NCBI GenBank assembly: GCA_003647765.1
Contig: QMNM01000084.1
Location: forward strand, 1 to 6,689
Source: Candidatus Cloacimonadota bacterium
GTDB taxonomy: Bacteria; Cloacimonadota; Cloacimonadia; JGIOTU-2; B8-G9
Direction: 5' to 3'
DNA length: 6,689 nucleotides
Shown here: positions 1 to 6,689 of the stretch, in pieces
Layout of the letters: each line of letters opens with the position of its first letter
Position numbering within the stretch: the first letter of the stretch is position 1
The notes under the pieces: model-generated
Databases searched by the model: none
The model's input: the letters and a program-made list of their open reading frames with translations, nothing else
Told to the model about the DNA's origin: nothing
Translations under genes and position numbers: made by a program

Positions 1-42
1 AATTTTGCCCTGCTGTTCAAAAAGTAAATTTTTATAATCCAT
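1..42 (-). CDS. Probable enoyl-CoA hydratase/isomerase (crotonase) family protein, N-terminus only
   Basis: Only the first 14 codons are inside the window; they read MDYKNLLFEQQGKI and the gene runs off the left edge. The start is ATG at 42-40, preceded by AGGAG at 52-48 with a five-base spacer, so the start itself is well supported. The family call rests on this short N-terminus, which resembles the usual opening of crotonase-fold proteins (M-x-Y-K-N-L-L-F-E-x-x-G-x-I, normally followed by an A-x-I-T-I-N-R-P strand that is not visible here). Crotonases hydrate or isomerise acyl-CoA thioesters in the cytoplasm. The gene lies 219 bp downstream of the aminotransferase on the same strand, with a repeat-rich gap between, so co-transcription is uncertain. 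No catalytic residue can be seen, and another protein with a similar first strand cannot be excluded. Confidence 0.5.
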   Translation of the reverse strand, partial: MDYKNLLFEQQGKI

Positions 43-90
43 TATCACTCCTATAATAGTTTTACTTTGTCAAGCTACAAAAGTGCAAGT

Positions 91-108
91 GGGTGAATCC
101 ATTCACCC
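91..108. repeat. Perfect inverted repeat GGGTGAATCCATTCACCC
   Basis: The arms GGGTGAAT and ATTCACCC are exact reverse complements around a central CC. In RNA this would fold as a seven-pair stem with a TCCA or TGGA loop. It abuts the next palindrome without a gap. A degraded relative, GTGGATACATTCACTC, lies at 4381-4396 in the gap before guaB, which suggests a dispersed repeat rather than a gene-specific signal. Confidence 0.8.
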
Positions 109-125
109 TTCGTAGTACTACGAAG
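108..125. repeat. Perfect 18-bp palindrome CTTCGTAGTACTACGAAG
   Basis: This sequence is its own reverse complement over 18 bp and begins where the previous inverted repeat ends. As RNA it could form a seven-pair stem with a GTAC loop. It could be a repeat-element terminus, a protein-binding dyad, or part of a bacterial interspersed palindromic repeat. The minus-strand 11-mer GTTCTTCGTAG (128-118) recurs on the plus strand at 6640-6650. Confidence 0.8.
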
Positions 126-134
126 AACTGGCAC

Positions 135-239
135 GCTAAGTCAGAAAAAGCGTTCTAATATTATTAAAGCCACGAATTCACAAACTAAAATGTTTATTTT
201 TTAATAAAGGACGCTTTAGTGTTCTTTTATTGACTCAGC
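135..239. repeat. Imperfect ~105-bp inverted repeat with GCTRAGTCA ends (MITE-like candidate)
   Basis: The left end on the plus strand reads GCTAAGTCAGAAAAAG (135-150). The right end on the minus strand reads GCTGAGTCAATAAAAG (239-224). The arms continue inward with AAAGCGTTCT...TATTAAAG on the left and AAAGCGTCCT..TATTAAAA on the right, offset by an eight-base insertion (GAACACTA) in the right arm and a short deletion. The arms therefore match over roughly 35-40 bp with indels. There is no coding capacity and I found no target-site duplication, so a non-autonomous transposable element is only one explanation. Confidence 0.5.
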
Positions 240-261
240 CTCGGTGTTTACACCGTCACAA

Positions 262-1593
262 CTACAATTCCTTTATCACATCACGGATAGCTTCTGCAAT
301 GGTATCAATATTTTTTTCAGTAATAGTTAAAGAAGGTGCAACACGAACTATTGATTTATGTGTTTCTTTAGCATACACACCTTTTTTTAGTAATTTCAAA
401 GACACCTGATGTCCGTCTAATTGAGGTGCTTTATACATTTCAAATGCAGTTAGTAATCCTTTTCCGCGTGTCTCTTTCATTTTATTTGGAAATTCTTTTT
501 GAATATCTGCAAAATGCTTTAATAATCTTTTACCGCGAATTCTTGCCATTTCAGCTAGATTTTCTTCTATCATTACCTTTATAGAGTACACTGCTGCAAT
601 ACAAGCCAGAGGATAACCTCCAAATGTACTACCTTCAGAGCCTGGACTAAGCACATCAATAAGATCAGCTCTACCAGCTACATAAGATACCGGTATAATG
701 CCTCCACCAGCAGCTTTTCCACAACTCATAAGGTCTGGCTTGGCATTCCATAATTGATGAGCAAAATTAGCACCTGTGCGACAATAACCTGTCTGAACTT
801 CATCAAGACAAAATAGAACATTATGTTCTTCACATAATTTTTTGACTGCTGGTAGATAATCATCACTTGGCACAATTACTCCTGCTTCACCTTGAATTGG
901 CTCTAATATTACAGCAGATAGAAATTCTGCATTCTCAGTTATTGCCTGTTCAATTGCTGGAATATTATTATATGGCACTTTGATAATGCCAGGTAAAAAT
1001 GGACCAAAATCTTTCCGAGATAATGGATCTGTAGAAGCACTAATAGCAAACATAGATCTACCATGAAAATTATTCTCTGCTACTATAGTCAATGCTTTTC
1101 CTTCTGGAACGCCTTTCTGTTCATAAGCCCAACGACGAGCTATTTTGAACATCATCTCCGGACCTTCTACACCAGCAACTTTTGGCACCATTTTGTCCAT
1201 CTCTGTAAATGCAGTTACAGCAATAAGTAGTGCAGACATATACTTATGCCGAATTGAACGAGGCACAGTTGGAATCTTCTCCATCTGCAAATGACTAACT
1301 ATGGCATCAACAATGGTCTTGTTCAACTGTCCAGGATTTACAGCAGAATAACAACAAAGGCCATCTATCAGTTCAAATTCCAAAAATTTCTTAATTTTTT
1401 CCGGGTCTGGCTTACGGGCAATAAAAGTTGTATCATCAAATACACTGGAAACTACAACATTTTCCAGTGGATGATAATTATTACCGCCTTTCTCTTTTTC
1501 AATTTGTTCGTGTTCAAATGGCGAGAGATCGCCAATTCGTATGCCATTTATTGTCAAATCATCACCATAACCAGTAATCTTAATATTATTCAT
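262..1593 (-). CDS. rocD: Class III PLP aminotransferase, ornithine aminotransferase-like, divergent N-terminus
   Basis: Cytoplasmic fold-type I PLP enzyme, probably ornithine:2-oxoacid aminotransferase (ornithine to glutamate-5-semialdehyde). Length is 443 residues from ATG 1593-1591. An in-frame ATG at 1620 is rejected because AGGAGG sits at 1603-1598, four bases before the 1593 start. Numbering from that start: PLP-lysine K293 (CGKAAGGG), cofactor D264 in LDEVQTG, EPIQGEAG 231-238 with E236, aromatic F176 and R179 in NNFHGR, GSTFGG 321-326 and C-terminal R417. Y40 (NYHPL) and Y82 (CYSAVN) match the two substrate tyrosines of human OAT (Y55, Y85), and R179, E236 and R417 match R180, E235 and R413. 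Odd points: residues 51-79 replace the usual W-D-x-(D/E)-G-x-x-Y strand-turn with a lysine-rich stretch, the usual NQGHCHP is NPGQLNK, and the NTGAEA-type loop is VAGVEG. A related CoA-thioester transaminase is possible given the crotonase downstream. It starts 62 bp after purM ends. Confidence 0.75.
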   Translation of the reverse strand: MNNIKITGYGDDLTINGIRIGDLSPFEHEQIEKEKGGNNYHPLENVVVSSVFDDTTFIARKPDPEKIKKFLEFELIDGLCCYSAVNPGQLNKTIVDAIVSHLQMEKIPTVPRSIRHKYMSALLIAVTAFTEMDKMVPKVAGVEGPEMMFKIARRWAYEQKGVPEGKALTIVAENNFHGRSMFAISASTDPLSRKDFGPFLPGIIKVPYNNIPAIEQAITENAEFLSAVILEPIQGEAGVIVPSDDYLPAVKKLCEEHNVLFCLDEVQTGYCRTGANFAHQLWNAKPDLMSCGKAAGGGIIPVSYVAGRADLIDVLSPGSEGSTFGGYPLACIAAVYSIKVMIEENLAEMARIRGKRLLKHFADIQKEFPNKMKETRGKGLLTAFEMYKAPQLDGHQVSLKLLKKGVYAKETHKSIVRVAPSLTITEKNIDTIAEAIRDVIKEL

Positions 1594-1603
1594 TTTTCCT
1601 CCT
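1594..1603 (-). promoter_or_regulatory. Shine-Dalgarno deciding the aminotransferase start
   Basis: On the minus strand AGGAGG (1603-1598) is followed by AAAA and then ATG at 1593-1591. The same 13-base block AGGAGGAAAAATG occurs at the dapA start. This makes the ATG at 1593 much more likely than the in-frame ATG at 1620, which would add nine residues and would place this ribosome site inside the coding frame. Confidence 0.85.
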
Positions 1604-1655
1604 AAATAATTATAGCTCATTCATAGCTCAAATTTAACATAAATACTTTGGGTAG

Positions 1656-2708
1656 TTAATGAATCTGCCTAATCTCAATTACAGGTTCAGAAATTACTTT
1701 TCCAGCAATCTTTGCTGTGTATTCACTTTTATCCATAATATCAAGAATCTTTTCTGTTTCAGATTCTGCCGCAATGATTAACATTCCATTCCCAATATTC
1801 CAGTATTTGCGAGCTTCTTTATCAGAAATATTTCCAATGGACTGTATTTTTTTCATAAAATCAACAGGTTCAAAAAGATTGTCAAGTATTGCTCCAAGAC
1901 CTTTGGGTTTTAGCACTCTCAATAGATTATCAGGTATGCCTCCGCCTGTGATATGAGCAATTCCTTTCAAAATAAAACCAGAGTCCAAAATCTTACAAAT
2001 AAGCGGAGAATATATCAGTGAAGATGTTAAAAGTATCTCTCCAAATGGTCTATTCTTATATTTTATATTATGCCAATTTTCTCCGAACTGTTCTTGCATT
2101 ATTTGCCTTATCAGTGAAAAGCCATTACTGCGAAATCCACGACTTTTCAAAGTTATAATAATATCACCGGACTTTATCTCAGTTCCATCTATTGGATGTT
2201 TCAAATTATGATGCAAAACCCCAATTGCTGTTGCACACCAGTTAAAGTGCATTCTGTTCCCATATCCTTGAACACGACTGCCAAGTTCAGCTATTTCTCC
2301 ACCTGTTATGGCAATATTAGCAAAATTACATGCATTATGAAGTCCTTTCATTAAGTCATTTATTATATCGTAGTCCAAATAATCTACATCTAAAATATTT
2401 GATATATTAGTTGGTTCAAATCCATTTGCAACAAGGTCATCCACAACCATTGCAACAAGGTCATAACCTAATGTATCATAAATACCAGTTCGTTCAGCAA
2501 GTTCAATTTTTGTCCCAATTCCATCAGACGAAATGCCAATTTTGACATCTCCAAAATTTAGTATATTTGAGAAAGCCCCATCAACACTTACAACTGGTTC
2601 ACCTAATTTATTGTACCTGTTCTTAAATGTCTTCTTTGCCCATGAATAAGCATTCTTTGAGCAAAAATTTCCAATGTCTATATTAAGTCCGCTCTTTTTT
2701 TTATTCAT
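1656..2708 (-). CDS. purM: Phosphoribosylformylglycinamidine cyclo-ligase (AIR synthase)
   Basis: ATP-dependent closure of FGAM to aminoimidazole ribonucleotide, fifth step of de novo purine synthesis, in the cytoplasm. The 350 residues match the usual length of about 345. Visible family landmarks: an N-terminal IDIGN (10-14) like the GVDIDAGN opening, the nucleotide loop SDGIGTK (61-67), YDLVAMVVDDL (82-92), GGEIAEL (136-142), FRSNGFSLIR (192-201), AHITGGGIPDNLLRVL (251-266) and WNIGNGM (303-309). The protein is divergent: the normally conserved VND is VDD (D90), and the segment after GGE-AEL differs from the usual MPGMY. The ATG at 2708 is the only sensible start (next Met is residue 87), yet no good Shine-Dalgarno precedes it, and codons 2-5 contain eight consecutive A. 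It follows guaB by 88 bp containing a strong hairpin. SelD, HypE and ThiL share the fold, but the TGGG and SNG motifs favour PurM. Confidence 0.85.
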   Translation of the reverse strand: MNKKKSGLNIDIGNFCSKNAYSWAKKTFKNRYNKLGEPVVSVDGAFSNILNFGDVKIGISSDGIGTKIELAERTGIYDTLGYDLVAMVVDDLVANGFEPTNISNILDVDYLDYDIINDLMKGLHNACNFANIAITGGEIAELGSRVQGYGNRMHFNWCATAIGVLHHNLKHPIDGTEIKSGDIIITLKSRGFRSNGFSLIRQIMQEQFGENWHNIKYKNRPFGEILLTSSLIYSPLICKILDSGFILKGIAHITGGGIPDNLLRVLKPKGLGAILDNLFEPVDFMKKIQSIGNISDKEARKYWNIGNGMLIIAAESETEKILDIMDKSEYTAKIAGKVISEPVIEIRQIH

Positions 2709-2729
2709 TGATATAACAATTCCACACAG

Positions 2730-2766
2730 AAACCCGACTCCAGTTCAAAGAACCAGAGTCGGATTT
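2730..2766 (-). terminator. Long G·U-containing hairpin between guaB and purM (terminator or attenuator)
   Basis: The minus-strand RNA can form an uninterrupted stem of about 17 pairs closed by a UUU loop. The outer arms are AAAUCCGACUC (2766-2756) and GAGUCGGGUUU (2740-2730). They are followed inward by two wobble pairs (UG against UG) and GUUC/GAAC. Three of the pairs are G·U, which become C·A mismatches in plus-strand RNA, so the structure is specific to the transcribed strand. The outer arm carries AAA before and TTT after, as in intrinsic terminators, but the downstream T-run is short (TTTCTG). It begins 31 bp after the guaB stop and ends 21 bp before the purM ATG. I infer termination of guaB or partial read-through into purM. 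Confidence 0.6.
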
Positions 2767-2796
2767 CATTGTTGAAACATGCCTTTACTATATTCT

Positions 2797-4314
2797 TTAT
2801 CTATTGCTGAATCCATCTCCCCATATTCTTGAATGATATTGACCTTCTGTTCCTTCTCCTGGAAGATGTATATCATGAACCTTTCCTTCTCTTATGGAGA
2901 GTGCCGATACTAATTCAAGTTCAGCATTTTTATGAAGTTCCTGTATGTTTGATACACCGCAAGTTGCCATAGTAGATTTAATTTTTGTAAGTGTCTCCTC
3001 TAAATTGTCTCTCAATGGGCCGGCATATTCTACAAATCCTTCAACGCCTTCCACAAATTTCACTTGATTATAGCGGAATGATTTCCATTCTCTTGCTCGT
3101 GATGAACCTTCACCCCAATATGGTTTCATCACCCGATTATTGATGATTACTTTTTCAGTAGGGGATTCTTCCATTCGTGCAAAATACCGTCCCATCATTA
3201 CATAATCAGCACCTAATGCCAATGCAATTACTATATCTTTTGCATTAGAAATTCCTCCATCTGCAATAATGGGTATATATTTTCCTGTGCTTGTATAATA
3301 TCTGTCTCTTGCTTCACAGACCTTGATAATAGCAGTTGCAAGCCCACGTCCTGTTCCTTTCTGTTCCTGTGTAATACATATTGAGCCACCACCCATTCCA
3401 ACTTTTACTGCACAAGCACCTGCTTTTATAAGAAAATCAAAGCCCTCTGATGTAATAATATTGCCGCCTATAACAGGGAGTTCAGGATAATGTCTATTTA
3501 TCCATTCTATTGTCTCTTTTTGATAAAACGAAAATCCATCTGAGGAATCAATAGACACCACATCAACTTCTGCTTCAGATAATGCAGGTATTCTTTCTTT
3601 ATAGTCATGAGTGTTTATTGCGGCTACAGCTAAAAGTCGCTTTTTCTCATCCACAACTTCAAGTGGATTATTGAGATGGTCGCGAATATCCTTTCTGAAT
3701 ACTAAATACAATAATCTATACTCTTTATCAACGATTGGCAGGACTGATTGATGTGTTTCTATAAGCAATGAGTTTGCTTGTTTGAGCTCAGTAATTTCCA
3801 TTCCTATTTCTATCTTATCTGCTGGAATCATTCTATCAATAACTTTTTGTGGTCCGTGCACTAATACATCATAATCATATTTTGTAATAAGCCCGAGGAA
3901 AACATTATTGTCATCTACAACAGGAAAAGTAGAATATCCAGTATGCTGCCTTATTTCATATAATTTTTTGATACTTATATATGGTGAAACTGTTTTTGGT
4001 ACAACAAATCCTGCCTTATAGTTTTTGATTTTTGTTATCATCTCTGCTTGTGATTTAATTGTTTGTGAGCAAAAAATAAATGCGGCACCACCAAGCTTTG
4101 CTAATTCTATTCCGATCTTTTCTCCGGACACTGATTGCATTGCAGAGGAAACAATAGGGATGTTTAGAAAATACTTCTTATTATCTGTTTCAGAATAGAC
4201 TAAAGGGGTCTTTATGGAAATCTTGTCAATGGTTGTGGATATGGTAGTATGACCTGGTAAAAGTCGGAACTCGTTCAGTGTCCTTGATGGTTCATATCTT
4301 ATGTTTTTCGCCAT
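2797..4314 (-). CDS. guaB: Inosine-5'-monophosphate dehydrogenase, two CBS domains, 'YWGEGS' type
   Basis: NAD-dependent oxidation of IMP to XMP, the committed step to GMP; cytoplasmic, normally tetrameric. The 505 residues form a split TIM barrel: barrel part 1 at about 1-98 (EPSRTLNEF, SSAMQSVS), two CBS domains at about 100-215, and barrel part 2 at 225-480. Visible active-site parts: D256 in IDSSDG (NAD side), the catalytic-cysteine loop GMGGGSICITQEQ with C313, the phosphate-site ADGGIS (351-356) and MMGRYFAR (373-380), the flap R414-Y415 and VEGVEG (421-426). The usual YRGMGS is YWGEGS (399-404), and the whole pattern resembles clostridial IMP dehydrogenases of about 500 residues that I recall rather than the E. 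coli type. The start is ATG 4314, preceded by GGAGG (4324-4320) with a five-base spacer. The 117-bp upstream gap holds a repeat remnant and no purine-riboswitch core that I can see. GMP reductase is unlikely because CBS domains and a full flap are present. Confidence 0.93.
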   Translation of the reverse strand: MAKNIRYEPSRTLNEFRLLPGHTTISTTIDKISIKTPLVYSETDNKKYFLNIPIVSSAMQSVSGEKIGIELAKLGGAAFIFCSQTIKSQAEMITKIKNYKAGFVVPKTVSPYISIKKLYEIRQHTGYSTFPVVDDNNVFLGLITKYDYDVLVHGPQKVIDRMIPADKIEIGMEITELKQANSLLIETHQSVLPIVDKEYRLLYLVFRKDIRDHLNNPLEVVDEKKRLLAVAAINTHDYKERIPALSEAEVDVVSIDSSDGFSFYQKETIEWINRHYPELPVIGGNIITSEGFDFLIKAGACAVKVGMGGGSICITQEQKGTGRGLATAIIKVCEARDRYYTSTGKYIPIIADGGISNAKDIVIALALGADYVMMGRYFARMEESPTEKVIINNRVMKPYWGEGSSRAREWKSFRYNQVKFVEGVEGFVEYAGPLRDNLEETLTKIKSTMATCGVSNIQELHKNAELELVSALSIREGKVHDIHLPGEGTEGQYHSRIWGDGFSNR

Positions 4315-4431
4315 TAATCCCTCCGTTAGACATTATTAAGCCCTAACTTGGTAATGTATAACGTTTTTTTGACTTAGCATGTGGATACATTCACTCGTTT
4401 TTGTAATCTGGTAAAGTAAAACTAAAGCGTC
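4315..4431. other. Gap upstream of guaB with a partial copy of the GCTRAGTCA repeat
   Basis: This 117-bp gap separates the HAD stop codon from the guaB ribosome site (GGAGGG, 4324-4319). It contains GCTAAGTCAAAAAAACG on the minus strand (4378-4362), a degraded palindrome GTGGATACATTCACTC (4381-4396), and ACTAAAGCGTC (4421-4431). All three resemble parts of the gap at 91-239. A weak five-pair stem (GTTAG 4325-4329 with CTAAC 4343-4347) abuts the Shine-Dalgarno. I see no convincing promoter pair and no riboswitch. Confidence 0.6.
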
Positions 4432-4440
4432 TTATAAAAA
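4362..4440. repeat. Second, rearranged copy of the dispersed repeat, reaching the HAD 3' end
   Basis: The minus-strand GCTAAGTCAAAAAAACG (4378-4362) matches the left end of the inverted repeat at 135-152 in 15 of 17 positions, allowing one indel. ACTAAAGCGTCTTATAAAAA (4421-4440) matches the minus-strand right arm at 220-198 (ACTAAAGCGTCCTTTATTAA...) apart from small indels. The 11-mer GACGCTTTAGT is exact in both places. The order and orientation of the blocks differ between the two gaps. The second block overlaps the last codons of the HAD gene. Confidence 0.45.
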
Positions 4441-5100
4441 TAATTTTCTTAATTCTAATATGTTATCTATTAGTAAGTCAGCTTGATTTAATTCATCAGC
4501 TGAACCATATCCATATAAACATCCAATAGTAAAGCAATGATTATGCTTTCCAGCTTCTATATCGTAGACACGATCTCCAACCATAACTGGATTTTTTGCA
4601 GAGAAATCCATAATGATTTTCCTCAAAAGCGTTGCTTTACTCTCATAAGGAAAATCACCAATACATAGTGCTTTATCTATAAATCTATTCAGCTGAAAAA
4701 CTTCTATCACTGTCCAAAAATAATCGCTACTGGCATTACTAAGCATAGCCAATCTTATATCAGATTCTTTAAGAAATAATAGCATATCCATAACACCATC
4801 AAACAATTTTCCTTTTCCTGCTCGTAAAAATCTCTTCTCATTATCACATACTTTGTGTCGCACTTCATCAGCTAAATAAATGTATTTCCCGGGAATAATA
4901 CTTTGATAAAACTGCAATGACGGTTTGCCTACTTCTGCCAGTATTTTCTCTTTATCAACAATTTTTTCCTGAATGTTTCTTTCTTTATATATGTCAGTAA
5001 TTGCTTTTTGCACTGCTTCTATACAATATGTCTCTGATTGCAATAAAGTGCCATCCATATCAAATATAACAGCATCAAATCTGGTATTTATCAAATCCAC
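4432..5100 (-). CDS. HAD-superfamily phosphatase, subfamily IA (phosphoglycolate phosphatase-like)
   Basis: Cytoplasmic Mg-dependent phosphatase of 222 residues, the usual size for the PGP/PpaX/beta-phosphoglucomutase group. All four HAD motifs are present: motif I DMDGTLL with nucleophile D14 and acid D16, motif II LSNAS with S121, motif III lysine K155 (ESKATL), and motif IV VGDRVYDIEAG with D176 and D180. A helical C1-type cap fills about residues 20-95. The substrate cannot be read from the sequence; phosphoglycolate, pyrophosphate or a nucleotide monophosphate are options, and location beside guaB is not proof of a purine role. The first codon is GTG at 5100-5098, three codons after an in-frame stop, with only a weak AAGA before it; TTG at 5094-5092 is an alternative. 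It lies 79 bp after dapA and 117 bp before guaB. The stop codon sits directly against a repeat block. Confidence 0.85.
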   Translation of the reverse strand: MDLINTRFDAVIFDMDGTLLQSETYCIEAVQKAITDIYKERNIQEKIVDKEKILAEVGKPSLQFYQSIIPGKYIYLADEVRHKVCDNEKRFLRAGKGKLFDGVMDMLLFLKESDIRLAMLSNASSDYFWTVIEVFQLNRFIDKALCIGDFPYESKATLLRKIIMDFSAKNPVMVGDRVYDIEAGKHNHCFTIGCLYGYGSADELNQADLLIDNILELRKLFL

Positions 5101-5179
5101 TCTTATGTTTCAGACACGAAAAAGATAATAAATTAAAAAGCACTTTCTGAAGCTCTCCAAGAAAATATATTGATTGTTG
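5101..5179. other. Gap between dapA and the HAD gene
   Basis: This 79-bp AT-rich spacer shows no gene. On the minus strand, T-rich stretches (TTTTTAATTTATTATCTTTTT) follow a weakly self-complementary AGCTTCAGAAAGTGCT segment. That could be a poor terminator for dapA, but only three pairs are certain. No clear Shine-Dalgarno is seen for the downstream GTG start. Confidence 0.4.
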
Positions 5180-6052
5180 CTAAATTAATCCATAATGTAT
5201 TAAAGTGTTCCTCAGAACATTAAGTTTTTCAGGAGATAATGTCCATAATGGTAATCTAATTTCTCTTTCAATCAGCTGCATCATTGCCATTGTCTCCTTT
5301 ACAGGAATCGGATTAGTATCAATAAACAACTTCTCATTGATTTCAAATAATTCTTGATGTAATTCCAATGCTTGACTTATTTTTCCATTTAAATATGATT
5401 CTACTAAATTATGTACTTTTTCAGGTAGTATGTTTGCAGTAACAGAGATTACTCCTTGTGCTCCAACTGCTAAAATAGGCAGAGTTAGATTGTCATCACC
5501 AGACATTAGAGAGAACTCATCCGATGTGTCTTTAATTATTTTACTAATCTGTCGTAAATTTCCACTTGCCTCTTTAATCCCAACAATATTTTTTATTTCG
5601 CTTAATCTAATTACTGTTTCAGCAGAGATATTTACACCTGTCCTGCCAGGGACATTATAGATGACAATTGGAATTTCTGTCTCTTCGGCTACTCTTTTGA
5701 AGAATTGGTACATACCTTCTTGATTTGGCTTATTATAATAAGGAGTTATTACTAATGCATAATCTGCGCATAATTCTTTTGCTCTACAAGTTGAAGATAT
5801 TGTTTTATGAAGGTTATTCGTTCCAGTGCCAATCATTACAGGTAATTTACTGCCAATTTTATTGATAGCAAATTGTATAAATCGTTCTCTTTCATCTGTA
5901 GCAAGAGAAGGCGATTCCCCAGTTGTGCCACAAAGTAAAATTCCATCTGTCTTATTTTTAAGATGAAAATCAATCAATCGCTCCACAGATGAATAATCAA
6001 TCTCATTATTTTTAAATGGCGTAACTAATGCCACATAAGAACCTGATAACAT
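5180..6052 (-). CDS. dapA: 4-hydroxy-tetrahydrodipicolinate synthase (dihydrodipicolinate synthase)
   Basis: Condenses pyruvate with aspartate-4-semialdehyde, the first committed step to diaminopimelate and lysine; cytoplasmic, normally a tetramer. The 290 residues form a complete class I aldolase TIM barrel. The Schiff-base lysine is K160 (VGIKEASGN). The catalytic triad is T44 (GTTGESPSL, 42-50), Y106 (ITPYYNKPNQ) and Y132 (IYNVPGRTG), and R137 matches the substrate-carboxylate arginine; each is one residue before its E. coli counterpart. These residues favour DapA over N-acetylneuraminate lyase or keto-deoxy-sugar aldolases of the same fold. The start is ATG 6052-6050, four bases after AGGAGG (6062-6057), the same block as at the aminotransferase. 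No other lysine-pathway gene is visible, so dapA stands apart from dapB or lysC here. It is the first gene after about 640 bp of non-coding DNA and probably carries its own promoter. Confidence 0.95.
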   Translation of the reverse strand: MLSGSYVALVTPFKNNEIDYSSVERLIDFHLKNKTDGILLCGTTGESPSLATDERERFIQFAINKIGSKLPVMIGTGTNNLHKTISSTCRAKELCADYALVITPYYNKPNQEGMYQFFKRVAEETEIPIVIYNVPGRTGVNISAETVIRLSEIKNIVGIKEASGNLRQISKIIKDTSDEFSLMSGDDNLTLPILAVGAQGVISVTANILPEKVHNLVESYLNGKISQALELHQELFEINEKLFIDTNPIPVKETMAMMQLIEREIRLPLWTLSPEKLNVLRNTLIHYGLI

Positions 6053-6062
6053 TTTTCCTCCT
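6053..6062 (-). promoter_or_regulatory. dapA Shine-Dalgarno
   Basis: AGGAGG at 6062-6057 on the minus strand, a four-base AAAA spacer, then ATG at 6052-6050. The AT-rich stretch before it (TATAGTTATTAT) closely resembles the one before the aminotransferase (TATAATTATTT), giving two near-identical translation initiation regions in one window. Confidence 0.85.
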
Positions 6063-6081
6063 ATAATAACTATAATTGGTG

Positions 6082-6109
6082 CGTATAACTCTTATAATTT
6101 TACTATCAA
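6082..6109 (-). promoter_or_regulatory. Candidate dapA promoter (weak)
   Basis: On the minus strand TTGATA (6109-6104) and TATACG (6087-6082) are separated by 16 bases and lie 30 bp upstream of the dapA start. The -35 matches consensus in five of six positions, the -10 in four of six. Alternatives further up include TATACT on the minus strand at 6128-6123 and TATTAT near 6145. In DNA this AT-rich such matches arise easily, so the position is tentative; that a promoter exists somewhere here is likelier than any single choice. Confidence 0.25.
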
Positions 6110-6161
6110 GTGAAAAATAAAGAAGTATACTACTTTCTAATCATAATACACAATCTTAAAT

Positions 6162-6175
6162 TAAGTTATAACTTA
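6162..6175. repeat. Perfect 14-bp palindrome TAAGTTATAACTTA
   Basis: The halves TAAGTTA and TAACTTA are exact reverse complements, about 110-123 bp upstream of the dapA ATG. It overlaps a second, odd-centred palindrome CTTAAATTAAG at 6155-6165. It could be an operator for a dimeric regulator of the dapA promoter. AT-rich DNA produces such dyads often, and nothing in the window identifies a regulator. Confidence 0.35.
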
Positions 6176-6301
6176 GCAGCGAAAAAATAACTTACCTAAT
6201 CACAAATACCATTATTTTTTGCTTTCATAATCTTTCATAAAACTTTTACAAAACAACTTATTTCTTGCTTATAGAAACCAATAGATTAACCAGCTTTAAT
6301 A

Positions 6302-6343
6302 AAGTGCGTAATGCGAAGTGCGTAATGCGAAGTGCGTAATGCA
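6302..6343. repeat. Three tandem copies of a 14-bp unit, AAGTGCGTAATGCG
   Basis: Copies lie at 6302-6315, 6316-6329 and 6330-6343; the third ends in A instead of G. The last copy runs into TTAC, creating the 12-bp palindrome GTAATGCATTAC at 6336-6347. There is no spacer between units, so this is a simple tandem array (minisatellite-like), not CRISPR. Its base composition is more GC-rich than the DNA around it. Confidence 0.9.
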
Positions 6344-6360
6344 TTACTTATATTTTATCA

Positions 6361-6474
6361 TTATAATAACTGAAATTGTTTTAACACTGTTTCAACTCTC
6401 TTATCTGTTCTGGATAACTCTCTTAAAGATTCAATCAACCAAGTTAATTTACTCTCCTCTCCTTTTCTAATCAC
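6361..6474 (-). CDS. Possible 37-residue small protein or gene remnant
   Basis: A minus-strand frame opens with GTG at 6474-6472, two codons after an in-frame stop, and ends with TAA at 6363-6361. The product is highly charged and looks helical (…SKLTWLIESLRELSRTDK… then VETVLKQFQLL at the C-terminus). Codon choice (TTA, AGA, GAA) is like the real genes. However, the purine-rich GGAGAGGAG lies inside the frame rather than before the start, so initiation is unclear. It may be the C-terminal remnant of a longer decayed gene; I do not recognise the family. Confidence 0.25.
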   Translation of the reverse strand: MIRKGEESKLTWLIESLRELSRTDKRVETVLKQFQLL

Positions 6475-6524
6475 ATTTCAATTAATTGATGAATTGATGC
6501 TTTTTTGTCTATTATCTAATTTTT

Positions 6525-6555
6525 GCCACAGAGTCATAGAGAACACGGAAAAGAA
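6525..6555. repeat. Left arm of an inverted CACAGAG/AACACGG repeat pair
   Basis: GCCACAGAGTCATAGAG followed by AACACGGAAAAG is a degenerate member of the 'cacagag…aacacgg' interspersed repeats seen in many environmental bacterial genomes. Its reverse-complement counterpart is at 6621-6651. Allowing small indels, the minus strand of that arm (GCTACGAAGAACACAAAG, then AAACACGAAGAAA) aligns with this one over about 30 bases. Confidence 0.6.
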
Positions 6556-6558
6556 TGT

Positions 6559-6689
6559 CTAATAACAAGAGTTCAAGAGTAAAACACTGATGCTGTGAAA
6601 TAGGAACATTTTGTTAGAAATTTCTTCGTGTTTCTTTGTGTTCTTCGTAGCTAACAAGAAGTCAAGAAGCTCTTTTATTTTGAATTCTG
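6559..6689 (-). CDS. Possible C-terminal end of an off-window gene, running through the repeats
   Basis: One minus-strand frame is open from the right edge through 42 codons to TAG at 6561-6559. It begins EFKIKELLDFLLATKNTKKH and ends in a hydrophobic VLLLNSCY. The other two minus-strand frames close within nine codons of the edge, and either could be the true end of an upstream gene. The KNTKKHEE part is simply the translation of the CTTCGTG/TTTGTGTT repeat. I regard this as open by chance or as a gene end altered by a repeat. Confidence 0.15.
   Translation of the reverse strand, partial: EFKIKELLDFLLATKNTKKHEEISNKMFLFHSISVLLLNSCY
6564..6669. repeat. Imperfect direct repeat AACAAGA-x-x-TCAAGA flanking the right arm
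   Basis: AACAAGAGTTCAAGAG (6564-6579) and AACAAGAAGTCAAGAAG (6653-6669) agree at most positions with one indel, 89 bp apart. The second copy directly follows the right arm of the inverted pair; the first lies eight bases after the left arm. Such bracketing is compatible with repeated insertion or duplication of the same short element. Confidence 0.45.
6621..6651. repeat. Right arm of the inverted repeat pair (TTTCTTCGTG/TTTCTTTGTG)
   Basis: This arm contains tandem decamers TTTCTTCGTG, TTTCTTTGTG and TTCTTCGTAG (6621-6650), each a variant of the last. It is the reverse-complement counterpart of 6525-6555, and the two bracket about 65 bp. Its 11-mer GTTCTTCGTAG (6640-6650) recurs on the minus strand at 128-118 within the palindrome before the crotonase. 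Confidence 0.6.

Follow-up and report, generated by a model that had tools for sequence, protein, structure and literature searches.

A dispersed four-hairpin element of a Candidatus Cloacimonadota genome, probably dependent on a Y1 transposase encoded elsewhere

Introduction

Short palindromic repeats of bacterial intergenic DNA include the REPINs and BIMEs, inverted doublets of short hairpins that are associated with RAYT (TnpA-REP) transposases, and in REPtrons related copies flank a single-copy Y1/HUH gene that stays in place (PMC3116915, PMC6006769). In the REP/RAYT systems known so far, the hairpins have a GTAG foot and the transposases belong to class 2. In TIRtrons, the Y1 gene (TIRYT) is flanked by longer, partly self-complementary repeats that are unrelated to GTAG REPs, with families of moderate copy number elsewhere in the genome (PMC3733652). 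Transposases of TnpA-Y1 subclass 1.2 carry the signature Y---Q--HH and are generally found without typical terminal secondary structures (PMC6006769).

This study concerns a stretch of 6,689 nucleotides from a Candidatus Cloacimonadota bacterium (assembly GCA_003647765.1, contig QMNM01000084.1, positions 1 to 6,689), called the window below. The original prediction, made from these letters alone, was of a small inverted-repeat element belonging to a dispersed family. The data presented here suggest that it is probably a dispersed palindromic element that is non-autonomous and relies on a tyrosine transposase of the Y1 (HUH, IS200-like) type, the gene for which lies elsewhere.

Results

A nucleotide search with window 110-260 found 62 matches in the assembly from which the window comes (G000; 1.97 Mb, 360 contigs, 89% complete), a consensus query found 65, and a covariance model trained on 15 of the genome's own copies located 48 places at E<0.01. 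The borders of these copies recur beside unrelated sequence, and the right border is either ..GTCGCAACCT or ..GTCGCAATATCTT. The genome search had been proposed beforehand as the test of a dispersed family, and the additional copies with coincident borders bear that claim out. Contig ends are enriched for copies, with 10 of 44 copies lying within 60 bp of one where about 1 was expected (p 3e-8). This is expected for a repeat that breaks assemblies, and therefore the true number is probably above the count. Among 124 genomes of the class, close copies were found only in the own genome and in one genus of another family (G013, G012 and weakly G002). The G013 assembly is 8% contaminated and some of its contigs may be foreign, so the near-identical dispersed copies in it need care. 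Pattern and protein scans of the GTDB genome_contigs gave no match, nor did a pattern scan of viral_contigs.

The core of the element is about 111 nt long and consists of two end hairpins, with inward GCTRAGTCAA feet, around two inner hairpins. In the usual order, end hairpin GCGACGGTGTAAACACCGAGGC is followed by foot TGAGTCAA and then by inner hairpin GAACGCTAAAGCGTTC and an AT-rich spacer, after which come inner hairpin AGCGTTCTTTAGAACGCT and its T-run, foot TTGACTTA and end hairpin GCGTGTGGATTTATCCACTCGC. Each half repeats the layout of the other in inverted orientation (GCGA-hairpin-GC-TGAGTCAA and GCGAG-hairpin-GC-TAAGTCAA). For one intact copy the fold energy was -42.8 kcal/mol (z -5.7), and another intact copy gave z -4.7, values that no shuffle equalled. 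The middle varies between copies and can be short (TATATTATA or ATATTCAA), long (AGCCACGAATTCACAAATTAAAATATTTATTTTTTA, as in the window) or replaced by other inserts, and some copies have at one place a further stem of ~73 nt (TTTACCCAGTGAAAT...ATTTCACTGGGTGAAGC). In a joint alignment of own copies and copies from the transposase loci described below, compensatory changes were present in 24 of 40 pairs, and 101 covarying cells were counted versus 12-27 in slid controls, with 0 of 500 shuffles as high. Covariation in the own-genome copies alone is weak (4 of 40 pairs); this fits decay of the resident copies and gives no support of its own.

The copy in the window is a long-middle variant on the minus strand. 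Alignment of borders over copies places it at about 57-261, wider than the 135-239 first proposed, between two minus-strand genes, one for a class-III aminotransferase (262-1620) and the next one, the ATG of which is at 40-38. The inverted strings quoted in the original prediction are all real (GCTAAGTCAGAAAAAG at 135-150 plus, GCTGAGTCAATAAAAG at 239-224 minus, GCTAAGTCAAAAAAACG at 4378-4362 minus, and GACGCTTTAGT at 210-220 plus and 4431-4421 minus), but GCTRAGTCA, taken there for the ends of the element, forms the foot on the inner side of each end hairpin. The outer end, of the subfamily A type discussed below, is TA (57-58) followed by GTTTTACTTTGTCAAGCT (57-76, plus). The first end hairpin, GGGTGAATCCATTCACCC (91-108), is altered here and homologous to GCGAGTGGATAAATCCACACGC of other copies; it is followed by a 23-nt insertion (109-131) that holds the palindrome TTCGTAGTACTACGAA and, by comparison with other copies, is private to this one. 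The inner foot of this hairpin, GCTAAGTCA (135-143, plus), is conserved among copies. The variable AT-rich middle (157-207) is the long variant AGCCACGAATTCACAAACTAAAATGTTTATTTTTTA, which stands in place of one inner hairpin and for which alternative middles occur elsewhere. An inner hairpin, GGACGCTTTAGTGTTC, then TTTTATT, lies at 209-224 and shows compensatory changes in relatives. Alignment of copies places the inner foot of the second end hairpin at 231-239, where it reads GCTGAGTCA on the minus strand, and the second end hairpin, GCCTCGGTGTTTACACCGTCAC, at 238-259, the latter also on the basis of compensatory changes and fold. The right border, ..CACAAC at 261, is the point after which most copies diverge, and it abuts the stop codon (TAG, 264-262) of the aminotransferase gene. 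The RNA fold of window 115-250 is not significant (z -1.24), which is explained by the long middle and the insertion of this copy. An Rfam search of the window gave no match.

The supposed second, scrambled copy before guaB (2797-4314, minus) is instead a half copy at 4357-4424 (minus), with an outer end, an end hairpin and a GCTAAGTCA foot, that is 82% identical over left-end positions 1-71. The 11-mer GACGCTTTAGT that had been taken to connect the two is a coincidence, as at 210-220 it forms an arm of an inner hairpin while at 4431-4421 it is made up of flanking sequence and the TAGT with which the outer end begins. Two other repeats were seen in the window: a 14-bp unit, AAGTGCGTAATGCG, in three tandem copies (6302-6343), and an apparent dispersed repeat (GCCACAGAGTCATAGAGAACACGG ... 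CTTCGTGTTTCTTTGTGTTCTTCGTAGCTAACAAG; 6525-6660) of a type that also occurs around the copies on G000:C22.

A locus that had been chosen for its Y1 transposase genes (L198, G013:C105) proved, unexpectedly, to match the core consensus. This locus has two tandem Y1 genes of 142 aa, surrounded by five elements that share the plan of the core but differ in hairpin sequence, one of which reads GCGAGGATGTGAACAACCTCGC-TGAATCGA-..-AATGCTAAAGCATT-..-GATTAAGC-GTGATGGTTTACCATCTCGC. A protein search of the 124 genomes found close relatives of this transposase in G008 (93%), G005 (70%), G009 (63%), G045 (60%), G008 again (57%) and G095 (56%), with the rest at 40% or less. To avoid circularity, a model (R2) was trained on own-genome copies only, leaving out those from transposase loci, and used to search the seven loci of this clade with 32 other Y1 loci as controls. 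R2 matched five of the seven clade loci (G013:C105 in 5 places, G008:C188, G005:C39, G045:C460 and G008:C34) with E values from 8e-18 to 1e-3, versus none of the 32 controls below E 0.07 (Fisher p 4e-5); it had no match at G095:C122 or G009:C113. In the window it matches 120-259 (minus) with E 3.6e-11 among 127 kb. The evidence from the transposase loci is drawn from G008, G005 and G045 as well as from G013. Elements stand on both sides of the transposase gene in G013, G008 and G005. At the transposase loci that were read they are directly repeated; each is nearly palindromic, and R2 matches on both strands. A rarer variant with the ~73-nt stem (TTTACCC...GGGTGAAGC) is common to own copies and the G013 and G008 transposase loci, where it reads TTTACCCCGTAAG..GGGGTGAAGC. 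In G013 (L198, C105) and likewise in G008 (L197, C188), which represent two genera, the Y1 gene has purE and an hrcA-like gene as its neighbours. That this neighbourhood is kept suggests that the transposase behaves as a fixed gene and not as a dispersed insertion sequence.

In the clade transposase HxH and Y--NQE-HH are invariant (H56, H58, Y116, Q120, H123 and H124). The protein matches Pfam Y1_Tnp, aligns with the ISHp608 transposase (E 4e-7) and passes the NCBIfam IS200/IS605 model NF033573 (86 bits, cut-off 55), but fails the REP-associated model NF047646 (28.8 bits, cut-off 80). By signature it appears to resemble TnpA-Y1 subclass 1.2. Among the matches listed, plasmid relatives were just ordinary IS200-type matches of less than 40% identity. 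No member of the clade was found in the 89%-complete own assembly. The single Y1 gene of this assembly (G000:C246) was considered as the driver and rejected, since its flanking palindrome is different (CCCAGTCGTTTACGACTGGG) and no element copy is nearby. This gene (G000:C246:3378-3719) and another Y1 gene (L141, G013:C11) are flanked by the GTAG-type palindromes CCCAGTCGTTTACGACTGGG, which make up a separate REP-like family.

Many copies, including the one in the window, belong to subfamily A and reach an outer end, TTTTACTTTGTCAA, whereas the outer ends of subfamily B differ (AGGACTTTCGCAG..). A search for empty sites with joined flanks gave no joined site for the A layout and one core-less B relative on G000:C89, and orthologous loci yielded no pair of empty and occupied sites. 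At this site (L214, 4367-4406), a subfamily B outer end is fused to ..CAATATCTT and the whole hairpin core is absent, so it is either an empty precursor or an internal deletion. A separate family of 250-300 bp with an unrelated interior has the subfamily A outer ends TA-NTTTTACTTTGTCAAGTTACAAAAGTG and ..GCAGCCTAATTTGACAAAGTAATA (G000:C156:5185-5436, C214:1819-2123, C134, C196, C133 and C160).

The outer ends raise the possibility of a classical MITE, that is, a TA-NTTTTACTTTGTCAA ... TTGACAAAGTARAAN-TA unit moved by a DDE transposase of IS630/Tc1-mariner or IS427 type, with the core as cargo. TA is present at -3/-2 before 38 of 51 unique matches to the TTTTACTTTGTCAA outer end, where 9% was expected (p 3e-29). 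Few copies retain both outer ends, and those at G013:C290, G000:C82 and G000:C156 have TA on both sides; in addition, other small elements (C156, C214) have just these outer ends in common. However, most core copies are without a recognisable right outer end and stop at one of the two right borders given above, the outer ends of the second subfamily are quite different, and in relatives the core alone flanks Y1 transposases. The own assembly has no DDE_3 gene, and no DDE transposase gene with the outer ends of the element was found in the own genome or in the stretches of relatives that were read. The sole DDE_Tnp_1 gene found in the own genome was rejected as the driver because it belongs to an unrelated insertion sequence with ends CATAGGCATCAACCTAA. 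That insertion sequence (L119, G000:C22, about 9383-10830), which encodes a 482-aa transposase, sits inside an element copy. A classical MITE is thus an unlikely account of the family. The label MITE-like, which implies a DDE transposase and terminal repeats, is not the best one for the core because core homologues flank a Y1/HUH transposase clade in related genera, but many copies also have a terminal repeat on the outside, preceded by TA, and so the idea survives as a second layer. The Y1 reading does not predict the outer ends, whether TTTTACTTTGTCAA after TA or AGGACTTTCGCAG.., and it is conceivable, as a tentative proposal, that the element has two layers, with a hairpin core moved by Y1/HUH chemistry and some copies of it lying inside TA-targeting outer repeats moved by a DDE transposase. 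If this is true, one short sequence was spread by two unrelated transposition chemistries.

The original prediction also named RNA processing as a possible role, and no direct support for it was found. Another explanation holds that the repeat is an immobile structured RNA or terminator, kept for a function at mRNA ends and spread by duplication only. Most copies do lie between co-directional or convergent genes, as judged by ORF heuristics, the inner hairpins with their T-runs resemble intrinsic terminators, and the fold is strong. However, the own copies decay without significant compensation, many copies, including that of the window, have a different middle in place of the one with an inner hairpin, and a consensus terminator scan of an intact copy found no inner-hairpin terminator. 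The REP literature describes the same placement without need of a function (PMC3733652), and this explanation appears very improbable. Chance inverted similarity in AT-rich sequence can be dismissed: judged on the window alone the inverted match is only modestly better than chance, as 6 of 200 dinucleotide shuffles of 115-255 equal the real 26-nt ungapped match, but the 48 genomic places and the cross-genome match of the covariance model outweigh this and refute chance.

Discussion

The reading preferred here, a palindromic element mobilised by a Y1 transposase encoded elsewhere, would work through a single-strand route, and we infer this route, the cutting (its site and strand) and present mobility largely from comparison with better known elements. 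As a single strand the core folds into a cloverleaf-like structure. If the transposase acts as in IS200/IS605 and REP systems, its target on single-stranded DNA would be the end hairpins and foot, where it would cut, and the core would be copied or inserted at new intergenic sites. The gene for the transposase stays put in relatives, with directly repeated element copies on both sides. In the own genome the cognate transposase was presumably lost or is in unassembled sequence, and the resident copies decay.

A clade with the subclass 1.2 signature, hitherto described without associated structures, is now linked to an element with four hairpins and a different foot, and this element is dispersed in a genome where such a transposase was not found. 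The pair also provides a defined substrate and enzyme for testing whether REP-like spread arose repeatedly from IS200 ancestors.

Compared with IS630/Tc1-mariner MITEs, the element has outer TTTTACTTTGTCAA ends beside TA in many copies (38 of 51 ends; few copies are two-ended), but a matching DDE transposase was not found and the core spreads with other outer ends too. It shares with IS200/IS605 (IS608) the catalytic fold by sequence, given the ISHp608 alignment, and subterminal hairpins; unlike in that family, the element is dispersed without the transposase gene, as a geneless unit. The likeness to subclass 1.2 (PMC6006769) lies in the Y---Q--HH around the catalytic tyrosine, the HUH motif, the short core and the low copy number, whereas the clade described here has a clear associated structured element.

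Like REPINs and BIMEs, the element is an inverted unit of hairpins dispersed in intergenic DNA, with two inverted hairpins forming one unit, and as in REPtrons related copies flank a single-copy Y1/HUH gene that stays in place, though here in related genera and not in the own genome. However, there is no GTAG or GTGG 5' to the hairpin foot, which is GCTRAGTCAA and reads TGACTTAGC or TGACTCAGC before the hairpin, the element has four hairpins in ~111 nt, and by the NCBIfam models the transposase is outside the REP-associated (class 2) group. Since a GTAG foot and a class 2 transposase were both looked for and neither was found, the element is not filed as a REPIN. With TIRtrons it has in common a Y1 gene between repeats that are longer, partly self-complementary and not related to GTAG REPs, and a family of moderate copy number elsewhere in the genome. 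A TIRtron would have inverted copies of a long repeat around the gene; the flanking elements are directly repeated in the loci read, though each is itself nearly palindromic, and the common GGGGWSAS motif of TIRtrons was not evident on unsystematic inspection. Taken together, the element works most like REPtrons/REPINs and TIRtrons, with a fixed Y1 gene, structured flanking repeats and dispersed relatives.
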